64,000 nucleotides of DNA from assembly GCF_016863295.1 (NCBI RefSeq), contig NZ_BOOP01000015.1, positions 62,001 to 126,000 of the forward strand, written 5' to 3'. Within the stretch, counting starts at the first letter, position 1. Every line of letters begins with the position of its first letter. The notes beneath the pieces were generated by a model. It worked only from the letters and a program-made list of their open reading frames with translations, was not told the DNA's origin and searched no databases. Of this stretch, positions 43,851-53,116 are shown in pieces. This DNA is from Planotetraspora phitsanulokensis (GTDB taxonomy: Bacteria > Actinomycetota > Actinomycetes > Streptosporangiales > Streptosporangiaceae). The translations under genes were made by a program, and so were the position numbers.

Positions 43851-45257
43851 GTGACCGAACGGTTGGACGGCCCGCAGGCCCCCGGCGGCGACATCCCCGC
43901 CGCCGGGGCCACCTCCGGCCCGATTGAGACCCGATCCGCGCCGGCTCCGGCCGCGCGTGTGGACAGCAGCACCCCCCATCGGCTCGGACCCTCCCCGAGG
44001 ATGGCGGCGCTCTTCCTCCTGCCCGCCGTCCTCCTCCTGGCCGCGTGGGTGGTCTACCCGATCATCTACTCGATCTTCAGGAGCCTGTACGACTCCGTCG
44101 GGGACCGCTTCGTCGGCCTCGGGAACTACGGCTCGATCTTCACGGACTCCGCCACGCTGACCACGATCAGGAACAACGTGATCTGGGTCGTGGTGGCTCC
44201 GCTGATCGTGACCGTGCTCGGCCTGATCTTCGCGGTGCTGACCGAGCGCATCCGATGGGCGACGGCGTTCAAGCTCATCCTGTTCATGCCGATGGCCGTC
44301 TCCCTCCTCGCGGCCGGAGTGATCTTCCGCCTCGTCTACGAGCAGGACCCCGACAAGGGCGTGGCCAACGCGGTGATCACCGTCGTCCACGACACGTTCT
44401 CCTCCAGCGCCGGGTATCCGGGGGCGCGGCCGCGCGAGAACGACCAGGCGCCCGCGGCCGTCCAGAACGGCGCCGTGGTGACCAAGCAGCAGGTGCAGGA
44501 TGGTCAGCCGGTGCTCATCCCGCTGGTCGGCCTCCCTCCCGACGTCGTCAAGGACGCCGCTCCCGCGAAGGCGGCCCCCGCCGGCGGTGTGAGCGGCACG
44601 GTCTGGCTCGACGTCGTCCGGGGCGGCGGCGGCACGCTCAACCAGATCGACCCGCAGGAGAGGGGCCTGGCCGGGATCACGGTCGAGGCGGTCTCCGGCG
44701 GCGTGGTCAAGGGCACCACCGAGACGACCGCCGACGGCAGCTTCCACTTCACCGGGCTGCCCGCCGGCTCTTATGTCGTACGGCTTCCGCAGTCGAACTT
44801 CCAGGCGCCCTTCAACGGGATCACCTGGCTCGGCCCGGGCCTGATCACGCCCGCGATCATCGGCGCGTACATCTGGGTGTGGGCCGGCTTCGCCATGGTG
44901 CTGATCGCGGCCGGGTTGTCCGCGATCCCCCGCGACGCTCTCGAGGCGGCGCGGATCGACGGCGCGACCGAGTGGCAGGTGTTCCGGCGGATCACCGTGC
45001 CCCTGCTCTCCCCGGTCCTGCTCGTCGTCTTCGTCACGATGGTCATCAACGTGCTGAAGGTGTTCGACCTGGTGTTCATCATCGCGCCGGGGTCGGTGCA
45101 ACCGCAGGCCAACGTGATCGCGCTCGAGATGTGGCGGGTCTCGTTCGGCGGCGGCGGCAACCAGGGCATGGGCAGCGCCCTCGCCATCTTCCTGCTGGTG
45201 CTGGTCCTGCCGTTCATGATCTTCAACATCCGCCGGTTCAGGAGGGACGAGCGATGA
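43851..45257 (+). CDS. Sugar ABC transporter permease (MalF/AglF type) with an inserted extracellular beta domain
   Basis: The 468-residue permease is far longer than the usual roughly 300. Helices are at about 51-76, 108-130 and 140-163. Residues about 165-328 are then an insertion with a linker (DQAPAAVQNGAVVTKQQ) and a Cna-B/prealbumin-like unit (GVSGTVWLDVV, GLAGITVEA, ETTADGSFHFTGLPAGSYVV). The membrane part resumes at GLITPAIIGAYIWVWAGF, and the EAA loop EAARIDGATEWQVFRRITVP sits at 365-384. The insert lies where MalF also has a large periplasmic loop. The gene overlaps the next by ATGA. Confidence 0.9.
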   Translation: MTERLDGPQAPGGDIPAAGATSGPIETRSAPAPAARVDSSTPHRLGPSPRMAALFLLPAVLLLAAWVVYPIIYSIFRSLYDSVGDRFVGLGNYGSIFTDSATLTTIRNNVIWVVVAPLIVTVLGLIFAVLTERIRWATAFKLILFMPMAVSLLAAGVIFRLVYEQDPDKGVANAVITVVHDTFSSSAGYPGARPRENDQAPAAVQNGAVVTKQQVQDGQPVLIPLVGLPPDVVKDAAPAKAAPAGGVSGTVWLDVVRGGGGTLNQIDPQERGLAGITVEAVSGGVVKGTTETTADGSFHFTGLPAGSYVVRLPQSNFQAPFNGITWLGPGLITPAIIGAYIWVWAGFAMVLIAAGLSAIPRDALEAARIDGATEWQVFRRITVPLLSPVLLVVFVTMVINVLKVFDLVFIIAPGSVQPQANVIALEMWRVSFGGGGNQGMGSALAIFLLVLVLPFMIFNIRRFRRDER

Positions 45258-48148: not shown

Positions 48149-49090
48149 TCAGGGACCGAGCAACTCCTCCCGCTTACCGACCAGCCCGTCGCGCTGACGA
48201 GTGAGCTCGCCGGCGCGGGCGGCCAACTGGTTCACCATGCCGTGCACCCACTCGGCCACCTGCTGCACCGCCGTCGCCGTCTGGGCGATCCGCTGATACT
48301 TGAGCGCGTCGGTGACGATGTTGTCGAAGAAGGCGTCCGCGAACCAGCGGGTGTCCACCTCCGGCAGCCGTGGAGCGGCCTCCACTCTGACGTCCGCGAG
48401 CTCCCTCGCGAACACGTCGAGCGCGCGTTGCGCGTGCCACGCCGCCTCGTCCGCCTTGAGCAGGTGCCCTCGCTTCATCATGTCGGCGAGGCCGCCTCCG
48501 CCCAACACGTCCCACGTGGCCGCTCCACGAGCACCCGAGAGATGCCGGAGGAGGTCGCCCACGGCCTGGCCAGCGGCGACTCCCGCCTGATGCGCCTCCT
48601 CGTGCTCTCGTAAGTCGGCACGCACACCGGCGAGCCTCGCCGCCACGTCGGCGAGCTCCCGTCCGCGCGGGTCGCCCGACTCGACCAGCATCCGCTCCTT
48701 GCGGGCGAGCAGCAGATCGAGCTCCTGATGAGGGCTTCCCTGCTCGACGAGGCCCTCCTCCGCGATCCTGAGGTCGGCGGTCAGCCATTCGAGCCTGACC
48801 CGCTGGCCGTCCACCCGCTGTCGCACGGCCGCAGCCTCGGCCCGCTCCCGGGTGAGCCGGTCCTCCCTCCCGCCCGTGAGGCCGGCGATGAAGGAGGCGA
48901 AGCCGCCGTGTTCCAGCCGGGCGACGTCGCGATCCTCCTTGGCCGACTCGCGTTCGAGCTCGGCCAGCAGCGCGCGGACCTCGTCGATCTGCCCGATCAG
49001 CGTGACGCGTTGGCGGGCGTGCCGCTCACGACGGCGCGCCCGATCCCGGGTCTCGCGCATCTCTTCATCGATCGCATCGAACAGGGTCAT
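48149..49090 (-). CDS. Coiled-coil protein of unknown function (MoxR/vWA set)
   Basis: The 313-residue cytoplasmic protein has an N-terminal half that is one long charged coiled coil (RDRARRRERHARQRVTLIGQ, then AELERESAKEDRDVARLE and a later LTRERAEAAAVRQRVDGQRV). A glycine-rich break (GARGAATWDVLGGGGLADMM) leads to a helical C-terminal part. The ATG at 49088-49090 is chosen because the upstream frame is the shadow of a low-complexity stretch. No family is recognised. It is the last of four same-strand genes that begin with a MoxR ATPase. Confidence 0.7.
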   Translation of the reverse strand: MTLFDAIDEEMRETRDRARRRERHARQRVTLIGQIDEVRALLAELERESAKEDRDVARLEHGGFASFIAGLTGGREDRLTRERAEAAAVRQRVDGQRVRLEWLTADLRIAEEGLVEQGSPHQELDLLLARKERMLVESGDPRGRELADVAARLAGVRADLREHEEAHQAGVAAGQAVGDLLRHLSGARGAATWDVLGGGGLADMMKRGHLLKADEAAWHAQRALDVFARELADVRVEAAPRLPEVDTRWFADAFFDNIVTDALKYQRIAQTATAVQQVAEWVHGMVNQLAARAGELTRQRDGLVGKREELLGP

Positions 49091-49158
49091 ATTCCACGAG
49101 ACGTACGGCAGGGCAGGAAAGTTGCCGCCGCTCGGAAGAGTGTCCGTGAGATGTGGAT

Positions 49159-50040
49159 TCACGCGACGCGGAGCGCGGGCGTACGGCACAGCCATTCGCT
49201 GACGGTCCCCTCGAAATCCGCCGGCGGACCGACCCGCAGGCACGACCGGTCGGCCGCGTCGCGCGTCAGCCGTACGTGGAAGGGCTCACGCCCGAGCTCG
49301 GGAGAGCCGGAGAAGACGGCGAAGTCGGTGCCCTCGATCCGCAGGTGATCGCCGATCGTGCGGCACCGCGAGCCCGGTTCGCCCCCGAGCCAGGCGAGAT
49401 GGCCGGCGAGCAGCCGCTCGGCAACGGTGCGGAGCACGTTGACCGTGCACAGGCGGTGGGCGCAGGCCGCGCCGTCCAGCATGACCTCGGGGAGCCCGAA
49501 CCGCGTGAGCCCCCGCGTCGTCACCCGCAGGCACGTGCAGACGTCGGTGCCGTCCGGGTCCCACGGCGGGCACGAGCGGTCGTCGTCGATGTCGACGGTC
49601 CACCCCAGCCAGTCGTCGCCCAGGCGGAAGTCCTGACGTTCGCCCGGGCATGAGGCGCAGTGATAGACGGCTGAGCCGGTCAGCCTGTCCACGATGACCC
49701 CACGGTAGGCCTCCGCGACACCGCGCGCCGCCGCGCGGGCGACCTGGGCGGCCTCCGGCTGCGCCTCGACCGGCGCGGTGCTGGAGACCACGACATGATG
49801 GCGGGCTCTGGAGACCCGTCTCAGGTCGTCGTCCTTGAGGCCGGTTCGCCGCCAGAGCGAGCGGTCTGCCCTGACCGCCTCCAGTTCCAGGCGCGGCGTG
49901 CCGAGCACTTCCATCGCTCTCTTCCGATGTGGTTTTCCCATACGCCACGGGACGATCGACGACAGCTCCACCGGCGCACGGTCCACGGCCACGACGAACA
50001 CCGACGTCGTCTCCGCGGGAACGGAATAGGTGATCTGCAT
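49159..50040 (-). CDS. Uncharacterised Cys-containing protein (MoxR/vWA set)
   Basis: The 293-residue protein has an N-terminal half including RARHHVVVSSTAPVEAQPEA and a GVAEAYRGVIVDRLTGSAVYH stretch reminiscent of DUF2314/DUF4026-like folds (a weak impression). The C-terminal half has scattered Cys/His (CASCPGE, DVCTCLRV, CAHRLC) that might bind zinc. The ATG at 50038-50040 has a strong GGAGGACCC site. The 174-bp gap upstream holds a DnaA-box palindrome, so this gene and the coiled-coil gene may have their own promoter. Confidence 0.7.
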   Translation of the reverse strand: MQITYSVPAETTSVFVVAVDRAPVELSSIVPWRMGKPHRKRAMEVLGTPRLELEAVRADRSLWRRTGLKDDDLRRVSRARHHVVVSSTAPVEAQPEAAQVARAAARGVAEAYRGVIVDRLTGSAVYHCASCPGERQDFRLGDDWLGWTVDIDDDRSCPPWDPDGTDVCTCLRVTTRGLTRFGLPEVMLDGAACAHRLCTVNVLRTVAERLLAGHLAWLGGEPGSRCRTIGDHLRIEGTDFAVFSGSPELGREPFHVRLTRDAADRSCLRVGPPADFEGTVSEWLCRTPALRVA

Positions 50041-50110
50041 GGGTCCTCCTGGGGGATCTCGGAAGCCCCACCATGGACGACCCGCCGGGGCGGCCTCCCG
50101 CCAGAACCCG

Positions 50111-50142
50111 GTTCTGTGGATAACGCGCGTTGTCCACAGAAC
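50111..50142. promoter_or_regulatory. Palindromic pair of DnaA boxes
   Basis: GTTCTGTGGATAAC (50111-50124) and GTTGTCCACAGAAC (50129-50142) are inverted arms around GCGC with one mismatch. They contain TTATCCACA (on the minus strand, 50115-50123) and TTGTCCACA (50130-50138), both good actinobacterial DnaA boxes. It lies 70-100 bases ahead of the gene starting at 50040. It could be a DnaA-controlled promoter or a DnaA-titrating site. Confidence 0.65.
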
Positions 50143-50214
50143 ATGCTTCGCCGGACGACGAGACACCGTCGCGGCAGAAGAGATCGCTGTACGGATCGTC
50201 GTCGCCCGGGCCGG

Positions 50215-52029
50215 TCATGTCATACGGAAGACCGGCCCACGGGGACGGAAGGGGAGGGATGCCCCCGCAGGAATCAGGAAGGCGTGCTCGCGCCGAATTC
50301 TGACCACGTCACACTCACCGTCGGTGATGACCAGGATGGGCCCGTCTCGGGGAAAGTCGTCGGCCCCTTCGAGCAGACTGATACCCGGCTGGAGAATCGT
50401 GCCGCCGCGGCCCCGGACGCGGACCTTCTGGGCTATGTCCTCGACGGGGAGATATCCGGCGTCGTAGGCGGCGGCGTCGCAGAACACGACACGTGCGCGC
50501 GGGACGTCCCGGGCCATGGCGTAGGAGGCGATGGCGCCGAGAGCCTTGCCCAGGAGTTTCACGTTCATCGACCCGGAGGTGTCGAGCACCACGCCGAAAG
50601 TGGCCTGCCGTACCCGCTCATCGGGACGGGCCCAGCCCGGACGCGGGATGTCGGGTGTGGCCGACTGCCGCCGGGAGGCCCGCGCATACGATCTGCGCCT
50701 CTCAACCACTGGGACGTGCGCCTCGAACCATTTGGCGAGTTGGGCGTCCCATTGCAGCGGCGGCTGGTCCAGTGCGCGGATCTCCTCCTCAAGACCGGTC
50801 GGGATGTCGCCACGGCCCCCGTCGCGGTGATAGGTGAGTCCGATGGCCAACGCGTTCCGGTAGTACTCGTCGAGATCCACGTATCGACCGGGAGCGCCCG
50901 GACGGGGCAACGGCTCCCCCAGGACGTCACCGAGCCCGCGGCCGCGAAGAGTCGCGATCTTCCGGAGCCGGCGCAGGTCTCCGGCGAGTCGCTCGTAAAC
51001 CGCCTCAGCGGACGACCCGCGCAGCGCCGGGTCGTAGAGCAGACCGTCCGGCATCTCGCCGACGCCCATCTCGACCAGCCAGCCGTTGATGACGTAGTCA
51101 CACGCCACGTTCCAGAGGTATGGCTCCCGCCAATCGGCCCTGTCGGCGTGACGGAGCGCGGCGTGCAACATCTCGTGAGCCAGCACGAACCGCCATTCGG
51201 CGTGCGTCATGGAAACCAGCGGGTTGATGTAGATCTCCGCTGCATGTGCGTTGACCGCGGCGACCGAGATGTCCCAGCCGCGGGCGAGATCGGCGTCCGC
51301 GACGATGGTCATCCCGGCCGCCAAGGCACCCAACAATGGATACGAGGAGACGAACCAGCCAAGGGCGACGTCCCAGGGCTTCTTGGCCTGCATCCCTTCG
51401 GAACTCCGGGCCCCGCCTACCATCTCGATCGCCCGCGTGGCCGAGGCCGATACTCCGATCGCGAACGATCTCGGGAAATCAAGGCGTTTGGCGACGTCCT
51501 CCGAGCCCACGAAGAAATCCGGAAATTTCGGTACTCCTAACTCTGCTGGAATCGCCGTTCGGCGCCACCTGCCGGCCAGTGTTCCCTCGTCCTCACTCGG
51601 GAAGTCCAGTGGTAGCGGTTCGGGCGGCCGACCGACCTTGACAGTGCTGAGGAACCGGTCGACGGTCAGGCAACACGCCACGCGATACGCGTGATCCGGG
51701 ACGCGCTGCCCCGCCATGCGCCCCGTGCCGACGTCGCGCCCCACGTCCCCGGCGGCAGCCGTACGCGGATCGAGATGCCCGAACGCGGCGTGGAGCAGGC
51801 AGTGGGCGAACACCCACGCCCACTGATCCACCTCGGCCCGTCGCTTCGGGTGATGGTGCACGGAGCCGTCGGGGGTGATGTATGCCCAGCCGTCCCCGGA
51901 AAGCTCTCCGTCAGGAGCGGCGGAGAGCTGACTGCGAAGCGGCTGGAACAGCGGGTGGGCCCGCACCTGGTTCCAGCCCTTCAGTACGGCGTCGCGCCAC
52001 GGATCGGCCTTGGGCTTCTTGGAGACCAC
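50215..52029 (-). CDS. Metallopeptidase-like and vWA domain protein (DUF2201-like)
   Basis: The 604-residue protein has a zincin-like helix HEMLHAALRHAD with HExxH near residue 285. Nearer the N-terminus a related but degenerate helix VFAHCLLHAAFGHLD (HxxxH) suggests a duplicated domain. The C-terminal third is a von Willebrand factor A-like domain with the metal site DTSGSMNVK near residue 481 and VITDGECDV. Such proteins pair with MoxR-type ATPases, as here: the gene starts one base after the ATPase gene ends. It is probably a cytoplasmic partner of the AAA+ protein. The GTG start is at 52027-52029. Confidence 0.88.
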   Translation of the reverse strand: MVSKKPKADPWRDAVLKGWNQVRAHPLFQPLRSQLSAAPDGELSGDGWAYITPDGSVHHHPKRRAEVDQWAWVFAHCLLHAAFGHLDPRTAAAGDVGRDVGTGRMAGQRVPDHAYRVACCLTVDRFLSTVKVGRPPEPLPLDFPSEDEGTLAGRWRRTAIPAELGVPKFPDFFVGSEDVAKRLDFPRSFAIGVSASATRAIEMVGGARSSEGMQAKKPWDVALGWFVSSYPLLGALAAGMTIVADADLARGWDISVAAVNAHAAEIYINPLVSMTHAEWRFVLAHEMLHAALRHADRADWREPYLWNVACDYVINGWLVEMGVGEMPDGLLYDPALRGSSAEAVYERLAGDLRRLRKIATLRGRGLGDVLGEPLPRPGAPGRYVDLDEYYRNALAIGLTYHRDGGRGDIPTGLEEEIRALDQPPLQWDAQLAKWFEAHVPVVERRRSYARASRRQSATPDIPRPGWARPDERVRQATFGVVLDTSGSMNVKLLGKALGAIASYAMARDVPRARVVFCDAAAYDAGYLPVEDIAQKVRVRGRGGTILQPGISLLEGADDFPRDGPILVITDGECDVVRIRREHAFLIPAGASLPFRPRGPVFRMT

Positions 52030-52030
52030 A

Positions 52031-53116
52031 TCAAATCCGGGCGGTGGCCAGGCGGGGCAGGTCCCGGCTTATCTCGACCAGGAACCACGAAGGCAGGACC
52101 GGAGCGCCGTCGTCGTCCGTGGCGATCACCAGCTGGGCACACTCAAGGGAGATCTCGGCCAGTTCGATGAGCAACGCCTTGGCGCGGAACGCCAGCTGCC
52201 TGCCCACAGGCGACGCGTTGTCCTTGGAAGTCGGCAACCCCTTGATGAGCCTCGCCCGAAACGTCTCAGACAGGAAATAGAGCAGGTCGCGATCGCCGGG
52301 GCCGCGCGGCCAGCTCGCGTCGCCCTTGAGCACTGCGTCCAAGTCGTACGCGTGCCGCACGGTCTTGACGTAGGCGCGGAACGCCGACGCGTGCGCCGCC
52401 GTCAGTGTGCCGAAGGCCAGGATGGACAACGTCTCATCGTCGATACTCTCGCCGTACGACCAGATGGCGTCCGACAACATGTGCCAGCCACGGGGGGTTG
52501 AGAAGGGCTCCTCGGTCTTGGGAGGCGGACTCCACAGATGGTCGGGCCTCTGGACCAGGTAGTCGACGACCCACTGGTGGATGCCGTGATCCGCCGCCCA
52601 CTTCAGCCAGTCAGTGGCCGATGCCCGCAGATGGATGTGGATCATGCGATTGACGAGCGCGGACGCCATGGGTCTCGCGAGCGCGTTGTCAGTCGCGCGA
52701 TTGCCGGCGCCGATGACGACCGAGCCGACCGGCAGTTCGTACGTTCCGATCCGCCGGTCGAGGATGAGCGAGTAGAACGCTTTCTGCACCTCGGGCGAGG
52801 ACGCGTTCAGCTCGTCGAGGAACAGGCAGTACGGCTCGTCCCTGGCGATGGTCTCCGGCGGGGCGAACCTGCTCCGGTCGCCGACGATCTGCGGCACGCC
52901 GATGAGGTCCTCTGGGGCGAGCTGGGTGCCGAGGAGCGTGACGCAGTGCAGGCCCAGCGACTCGGCGAACGACTGAACGAGCGAGCTCTTACCGATTCCC
53001 GGAGCACCCCAGAGGAACACTGGGCGGACCACTGCGACATGCAGCAGCACGTTGGGAAGCTGCGCCGGGGTGACGGTGAGAGGTGCCTGCACGGCACCGA
53101 GATTGCCCGACGGCAA
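52031..53116 (-). CDS. MoxR-type AAA+ ATPase
   Basis: The 361-residue protein (353 if the GTG at 53092 is used) has Walker A VFLWGAPGIGKSS, Walker B YCLFLDELNASSPEVQ, a sensor 1 segment VVIGAGNRATDNA and the arginine-finger region ALVNRMIHIHL. The C-terminal lid is helical. MoxR ATPases act as chaperones that remodel or insert metal into vWA-partner complexes, and the partner gene follows immediately. The first start in the frame is TTG (53114-53116) without a clear ribosome site. Confidence 0.9.
   Translation of the reverse strand: MPSGNLGAVQAPLTVTPAQLPNVLLHVAVVRPVFLWGAPGIGKSSLVQSFAESLGLHCVTLLGTQLAPEDLIGVPQIVGDRSRFAPPETIARDEPYCLFLDELNASSPEVQKAFYSLILDRRIGTYELPVGSVVIGAGNRATDNALARPMASALVNRMIHIHLRASATDWLKWAADHGIHQWVVDYLVQRPDHLWSPPPKTEEPFSTPRGWHMLSDAIWSYGESIDDETLSILAFGTLTAAHASAFRAYVKTVRHAYDLDAVLKGDASWPRGPGDRDLLYFLSETFRARLIKGLPTSKDNASPVGRQLAFRAKALLIELAEISLECAQLVIATDDDGAPVLPSWFLVEISRDLPRLATARI

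Follow-up and report, generated by a model that had tools for sequence, protein, structure and literature searches.

The locus considered here occupies positions 48149-53116 of a 64,000-nucleotide stretch of Planotetraspora phitsanulokensis DNA (contig NZ_BOOP01000015.1), which was analysed as a whole and is called the window below, and it raises the question of whether its four genes form one molecular machine of an undescribed type, as the initial annotation had suggested, or whether a smaller unit is contained in it. The open reading frames of the window do give four genes there, all on the (-) strand, and a single base separates the end of the MoxR-like ATPase frame (52031) from the GTG start (52029) of the gene for its von Willebrand factor A (vWA) partner, exactly as first described. 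We found that the unit that stays together is the first two genes, an ATPase and a partner with two zincin-like domains and a vWA domain (the double form). We suggest, with a probability of roughly 45%, that this pair is a self-contained two-gene, ATP-driven AAA+ remodelling metalloprotease, as far as its predicted motifs can tell.

Loci encoding a relative of the partner protein (P0002) were ranked, and the best 80 of 354 were kept, so that more distant members are under-sampled. In 80 of these 80 relatives the zincin-vWA gene lies directly behind the MoxR gene, in support of the earlier view of a MoxR/vWA module with a zincin helix, and the MoxR gene is full length or nearly so in 79. The spacing of the pair is at most 60 base pairs in 74 loci, and the gene caller places a 4-base overlap in 45. 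What comes after the pair varies widely: 31 kinds of downstream gene, defined by cluster and strand, occur among the 80 loci (L054 and L060 break off behind the pair), and the commonest kind is found at 23 loci, all named Streptomyces but L093, which is named Actinobacteria bacterium only. The MoxR gene and the DUF2201 zincin-vWA gene are a conserved two-gene unit in changing surroundings. It should be noted that L058 (6801-6989) holds only a 62-amino-acid MoxR remnant next to an intact double-zincin vWA gene, which is either a natural loss or an assembly error.

Profile searches of the four proteins, which the initial annotation had proposed, named genes 1 and 2 by Pfam and left genes 3 and 4 without a name; NCBIfam and PADLOC gave weak matches only for the four. 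Gene 1 (P0001, 52031..53092) has a likely GTG start at 53092, chosen, like the starts of genes 3 and 4 below, from a codon-usage caller and the N-termini of homologues; several relatives begin MQA, and the open frame itself reaches 53116. The protein passes the cut-off of AAA_5 (PF07728; 42.9 bits, cut-off 22) and falls under that of AAA_3 (PF07726; 23.5 bits vs. 27), which we take to be the MoxR profile, so that "MoxR-like" is a working label. It carries Walker A (GAPGIGKSS), Walker B (CLFLDELN) and sensor 1 (GAGNR) motifs, with R157 as the candidate Arg finger and R209 as the candidate sensor 2, names that we presume to fit these positions; each of 11 motif positions is invariant (13/13) in an alignment of 13 of 81 MoxR genes. 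In PHROGs it falls into phage family 1297 (E 3e-70), and among proteins of solved structure Midasin is the closest in sequence to the MoxR profile (E 4.4e-12); it is a giant eukaryotic protein with the ring and a vWA domain in a single chain.

The partner P0002 (604 amino acids, 50215..52029) belongs to DUF2201_N (PF13203; 66.8 bits, cut-off 23.2) and to PHROGs phage family 1314 (E 9e-42). It remains below the curated cut-off of the vWA-like family PF09967 (20.0 vs. 26.4 bits); despite this shortfall, the vWA fold and its metal ion-dependent adhesion site (MIDAS) are seen by structure comparison and alignment. To judge from its sequence, P0002 holds three domains, two of them zincin-like: (i) an N-terminal zincin-like domain (residues 1-215; 51385..52029); (ii) a middle zincin matching PF13203 (residues 216-400; 50830..51384); and (iii) the vWA domain (residues ~474-604; 50218..50610). 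Conservation was read from an alignment of the window protein with those of 69 of the 80 loci (L036, L040, L053, L054, L057, L058, L059, L082, L086, L101 and L104 were omitted). The middle zincin has an intact HExxHxxxxH motif (H285ExxH289xxxxH294), the His and Glu residues of which are kept in 70/70 sequences, as are N307, D311 and N315 of the stretch N307xxxD311xxxN315, and its profile matches the MJ1213 chains; the domain has what a zincin metallopeptidase motif is expected to have, HExxH and a further ligand candidate. The MIDAS residues D483, S485 and S487 (the DTSGS stretch), T544 and D570 are likewise conserved in 70/70. The composition of zincin-like helix plus vWA domain had been recognised correctly from the start, but the second, Glu-less zincin-like domain at the N-terminus had been missed.

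This N-terminal domain is predicted to be a diverged duplicate of the zincin, with the same HxxxHxxxxH spacing. In an hhalign comparison based on 65 of the 70 aligned sequences, residues 22-139 align to residues 227-330 of the middle domain with a probability of 97.1% and a score of 73.0; 60 column shuffles score 22.9 or less, and the vWA domain gives 0.1%. The His triad of the motif H76xxxH80xxxxH85 is kept in 70/70 sequences, and the catalytic Glu is present at position 77 in 0/70 (Cys in 27, Leu in 24, Ala in 15, Gly in 2, Val and Ser in 1 each). C120 is found in 67 sequences, with Asp in the other 3, and is aligned opposite the invariant Asp311 of the active domain. Only 8 of the 215 columns of the domain are invariant, and 3 of these are the His triad; mean identity to the window protein is 42% for the N-terminal, 72% for the middle and 80% for the vWA domain. 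An AlphaFold model of the domain has a predicted local distance difference test score (pLDDT) of 93.8, and its best solved matches, found by Foldseek with VIA-align, are small zincins with modest Z; the domain was folded alone, and vWA structures filled the match list of the full-length model. Across the clade, down to 43% identity, the zincin-like domain lacks the catalytic Glu yet retains the His triad, the member at 43% being an unverified scaffold. It is conceivable, if rather unlikely, that the domain is a pseudo-protease retained for its metal, with a candidate His3-Cys site that would carry or sense metal or anchor clients. One partner subunit would then have three different metal sites (pseudo-zincin, active zincin and MIDAS), a layout that our literature searches did not find on one such subunit.

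The occurrence of the pair is patchy. Matches to the zincin-vWA gene came from 26 of the 150 genomes searched in the order (those in G032, G070, G127 and G128 are partial or stop-bearing), and across the phylum 19 of 246 genomes have PF13203. With the double-form profile, 40 of 296 genomes in the class gave matches; these include 16 full-length rows, G556 and G595 are covered in two pieces, and the others match only over a short stretch at the vWA end. Of 20 stretches around PF13203 genes, 19 have a MoxR-like match (the exception is L191) and 4 have the double form. In the motif survey, L001 and L176 are truncated copies of the window, the 114 rows counted as "double" include many that were retrieved more than once, and row L035 has one additional chance motif.

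The proposed mechanism is modelled by analogy on NorQ/NorD, because this system is the best template. According to the accessible parts of two papers, the vWA domain of NorD inserts a finger into the pore of the MoxR ring, an acidic residue of the client presumably binds to the MIDAS, and the partner is twisted by ATP turnover (PMC13036017, PMC9976466). In the window pair, the two genes of which stay together with short or overlapping junctions, MoxR and its partner would be co-translated. MoxR would assemble into a hexameric ring; the vWA domain would dock on it and hold a client through the MIDAS metal; and ATP-driven motion would pull or twist the client and bring a segment of it to the middle zincin, which would cut it. 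The N-terminal pseudo-zincin may serve as a metal-stabilised docking domain, binding rather than cutting, and genes 3 and 4 would take no part.

A rival reading is a chaperone for metal insertion or maturation, in the manner of NorQD or CobST, in which the two zincin-like sites would hold or hand over metal and the ring would open a metalloenzyme client. NorQD is described as inserting iron by the same logic of MoxR and vWA/MIDAS (PMC13036017, accessible part), and the N-terminal domain, with three His residues kept, the Glu lost and a near-invariant Cys opposite Asp311, looks as a metal-binding, non-hydrolytic site might. However, no single neighbour kind goes with the pair outside one group of genera, neighbour families are mixed (among the first 25 of 148 families), and the middle HExxH, kept throughout the alignment, is needless for metal carriage. 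We consider this explanation doubtful, and prefer the remodelling metalloprotease.

Another explanation is that the pair is a captured phage-type module for assembly or processing of large complexes, having a common origin with, or descending from, a pair of the N4 gp24/gp25 type. Relatives of P0002 occur in 207 phage records, among them those of Pollock, where the protein is noted as N4 gp25-like, and of phiFa, Phosso and phage G (gp576). The adjoining N4 genes gp24 and gp25 encode homologues of the two window proteins (E 4e-33 and 5e-15), and the N4 record itself describes them as similar to proteins 1 and 2 of "S. coel.". The own genome holds a second, single-zincin MoxR/DUF2201 pair (G000 contig C4, ~70291-72454; L177), and the window MoxR is closer to phage ATPases (147 bits for phiFa, 117 for N4 and 112 for Phosso) than to the MoxR of that pair (77 bits). 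The accessible part of the jumbo-phage paper proposes virion assembly and proteolysis for a similar pair (PMC7824862). Conversely, the HExxH lies near residue 70 in each of the four phage proteins that were inspected, those of N4, phiFa, Phosso and phage G, so that there is no room for a second zincin. The two trees also conflict on where the phages belong. The double form is one clade on a long stem, with 100/100 support, in both (24 MoxR rows and 27 zincin-vWA rows). The MoxR tree, built without L178, L185, L194 and L195, sets the double form and the phages apart from the single-zincin bacterial form (100/100), whereas the zincin-vWA tree, built without L194, L195 and L196, sets the double and single-zincin bacterial forms apart from the phages (97/93); with long branches and warnings in both, the phage attachment point is uncertain. 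Capture of a phage-type module seems improbable to us as an explanation of the pair. Two records deserve mention in their own right: in phage Pollock (L143, 3118-4906) an HNH homing endonuclease interrupts the frame of the N4 gp24-like ATPase, and an unverified "Bacteriophage sp." scaffold (L197, MT835968.1) bears a double-zincin pair and is perhaps bacterial DNA.

A conflict or anti-phage role is, in our estimate, also improbable. It would suit the patchy occurrence in the order and the filling of the same slot by other genes in two genomes of the same genus (see below); multicellular bacteria have known conflict systems of the MoxR-vWA type, according to the accessible part of the source (PMC7159879), and isolated neighbours match PADLOC strongly (HEC-01A, 5e-121; AriA, 2e-26; IetA, 8e-18). 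The 309 flanking genes formed 122 clusters, of which 8 over 700 amino acids were dropped, leaving 114 representatives, one per cluster. No PADLOC family is found in more than 2 of these 114 (among 25 of 32 families), and none of the four window proteins has a PADLOC match at E <=0.01; with no recurrent neighbour family among those listed, a link to defence was rejected. Ternary MoxR-vWA conflict systems have a conserved third core component; with 31 kinds of downstream gene at the 80 loci, the pair has no fixed third member.

The weakest explanation, that all four genes are one machine, can point to the shared strand and close packing of the genes in the window and to the co-occurrence of gene 4 with the pair, and was rejected on neighbourhood data: gene 3 or gene 4 lies directly behind the pair in 0/80 relatives, the window alone having such an order, and the block with gene 3 (in L111 also with gene 4) occurs without the pair at that place. 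The initial annotation had itself held that the downstream genes would be only passengers if they were not conserved next to the pair, and this is how the comparison turned out. We are nearly certain that both gene 3 and gene 4 are passengers with no part in the machine.

Gene 3 (49159..50040; likely start ATG 50040, preceded by aggagg) and gene 4 (48149..49090; likely start ATG 49090) no longer overlap once these starts are adopted. Both lack a recognised family, as had been noted: in Pfam, gene 3 has no match up to E 1 and gene 4 none above cut-off, and in PHROGs neither has a match better than E 0.02. Scans with the aligned members (25 of 30 for gene 3, 18 of 20 for gene 4) gave weak coiled-coil or DUF matches only. 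The earlier description of gene 4 as a coiled-coil protein agrees with its weak SMC/ASRP-type matches. The "Cys-rich" gene 3, with 10 Cys counted from its likely start, had been taken for a possible zinc protein; no Cys column is kept in all 25 aligned members (columns range from 6 to 20 of 25), and a zinc role was rejected on this ground.

Genes 3 and 4 are part of a Streptosporangiaceae synteny block; in the order, gene 3 is matched in 58 and gene 4 in 37 of the 150 genomes. In the flanks retrieved around the pair (up to 7 kilobases, less at contig ends), gene 3 is found at 3 of the 80 loci (L026, L027 and L061) and gene 4 at one (L061), with intervening genes present. In one genome of the same genus (G060), the block consists of alpha-amylase-family genes, GNAT, gene 3, MOSC and UDG, with a partial match to gene 4 and no match to the zincin-vWA gene; in another (G104), the block includes both gene 3 and gene 4, and the pair is on a different contig. 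DNA homology to both ends at the GNAT stop (53190) and restarts at 50139 (G060) or 50051 (G104), and other genes occupy the slot between GNAT and gene 3 in both; thus, the pair sits in a variable slot.

One finding speaks against the separation of gene 4 from the pair. Among the 150 genomes of the order, with no correction for ancestry, gene 4 and the pair co-occur in 15, compared to 6.4 expected (p 7e-5); for gene 3 the number is near expectation (12 vs. 10.1, p 0.39). Of the 9 genera that have a match to the pair, 7 also match gene 4, and shared ancestry can therefore explain the co-occurrence. The pair and gene 4 are at most 20 kilobases apart in 2 of the 15 genomes holding both (G000 and G082); most of the others have them on different contigs, where nearness is not fully excludable.

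About 75 bases ahead of gene 3, at 50115-50138, lies the palindrome TGTGGACAACGCGCGTTATCCACA, the halves of which we take to be two inverted DnaA-box-like nonamers. With no more than 2 mismatches allowed, the genome has this site only once. In four other genomes (L110, L111, L112/L026 and L114/L027), versions with 1-3 mismatches precede gene 3, and none was found at the remaining gene-3 loci. The palindrome is a possible operator of gene 3, and its retention in four other genomes suggests that gene 3 has its own control region. Elsewhere in the window, at 44001-45257, an ABC-type permease has a CarboxypepD_reg/SdrD_B-type domain ahead of the matched transport domain.

How new, then, is the pair? 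Selecase MJ1213 and jannalysin, presumably of the class named minigluzincins, differ from P0002 in being small stand-alone proteins of ~110 residues. NorQ/NorD resembles the window pair in its MoxR ring, its vWA domain with MIDAS and an additional N-terminal domain; it differs in its location in the nor operon alongside its target, and no zincin is mentioned in the accessible parts of its descriptions (PMC13036017, PMC9976466). In N4-like phages (Schitoviridae), gp24 and gp25 are adjoining ATPase and zincin-vWA genes with HExxHxxxxH and DTSGS, as in the window, but the gp25-type protein has one zincin, 380 amino acids and no N-terminal Glu-less domain, and is a phage gene; in the accessible part of a list of N4 core genes, 24 is labelled "Unknown" and 25 "vWFA domain" (PMC4193335). 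The closest published description that we found, as far as its accessible part goes, is a jumbo-phage pair of MoxR and a vWA partner that has a metallopeptidase fused at its N-terminus; the likeness is one of description, the pair comes from group 2.2 jumbo phages, and that part makes no mention of a second zincin or of bacterial members (PMC7824862). The kind of system is therefore already in print, judging from these accessible parts (PMC4193335, PMC7824862), and the machine type is not an undescribed one. The single-zincin bacterial pair consists of the same two proteins with one HExxHxxxxH motif (HEVAHLLRDH), and stands apart from the double form in both trees. Our searches, which covered open-licence papers mostly judged from listings, did not find a double-zincin bacterial subfamily. 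The double-zincin clade is a new variant of the known MoxR/metallopeptidase-vWA pairs. It should be noted that this chromosomal relative provides a non-phage system in which the ATPase, the grip, the protease and the pseudo-protease can each be disarmed through one residue, so that the job of the whole class becomes testable.
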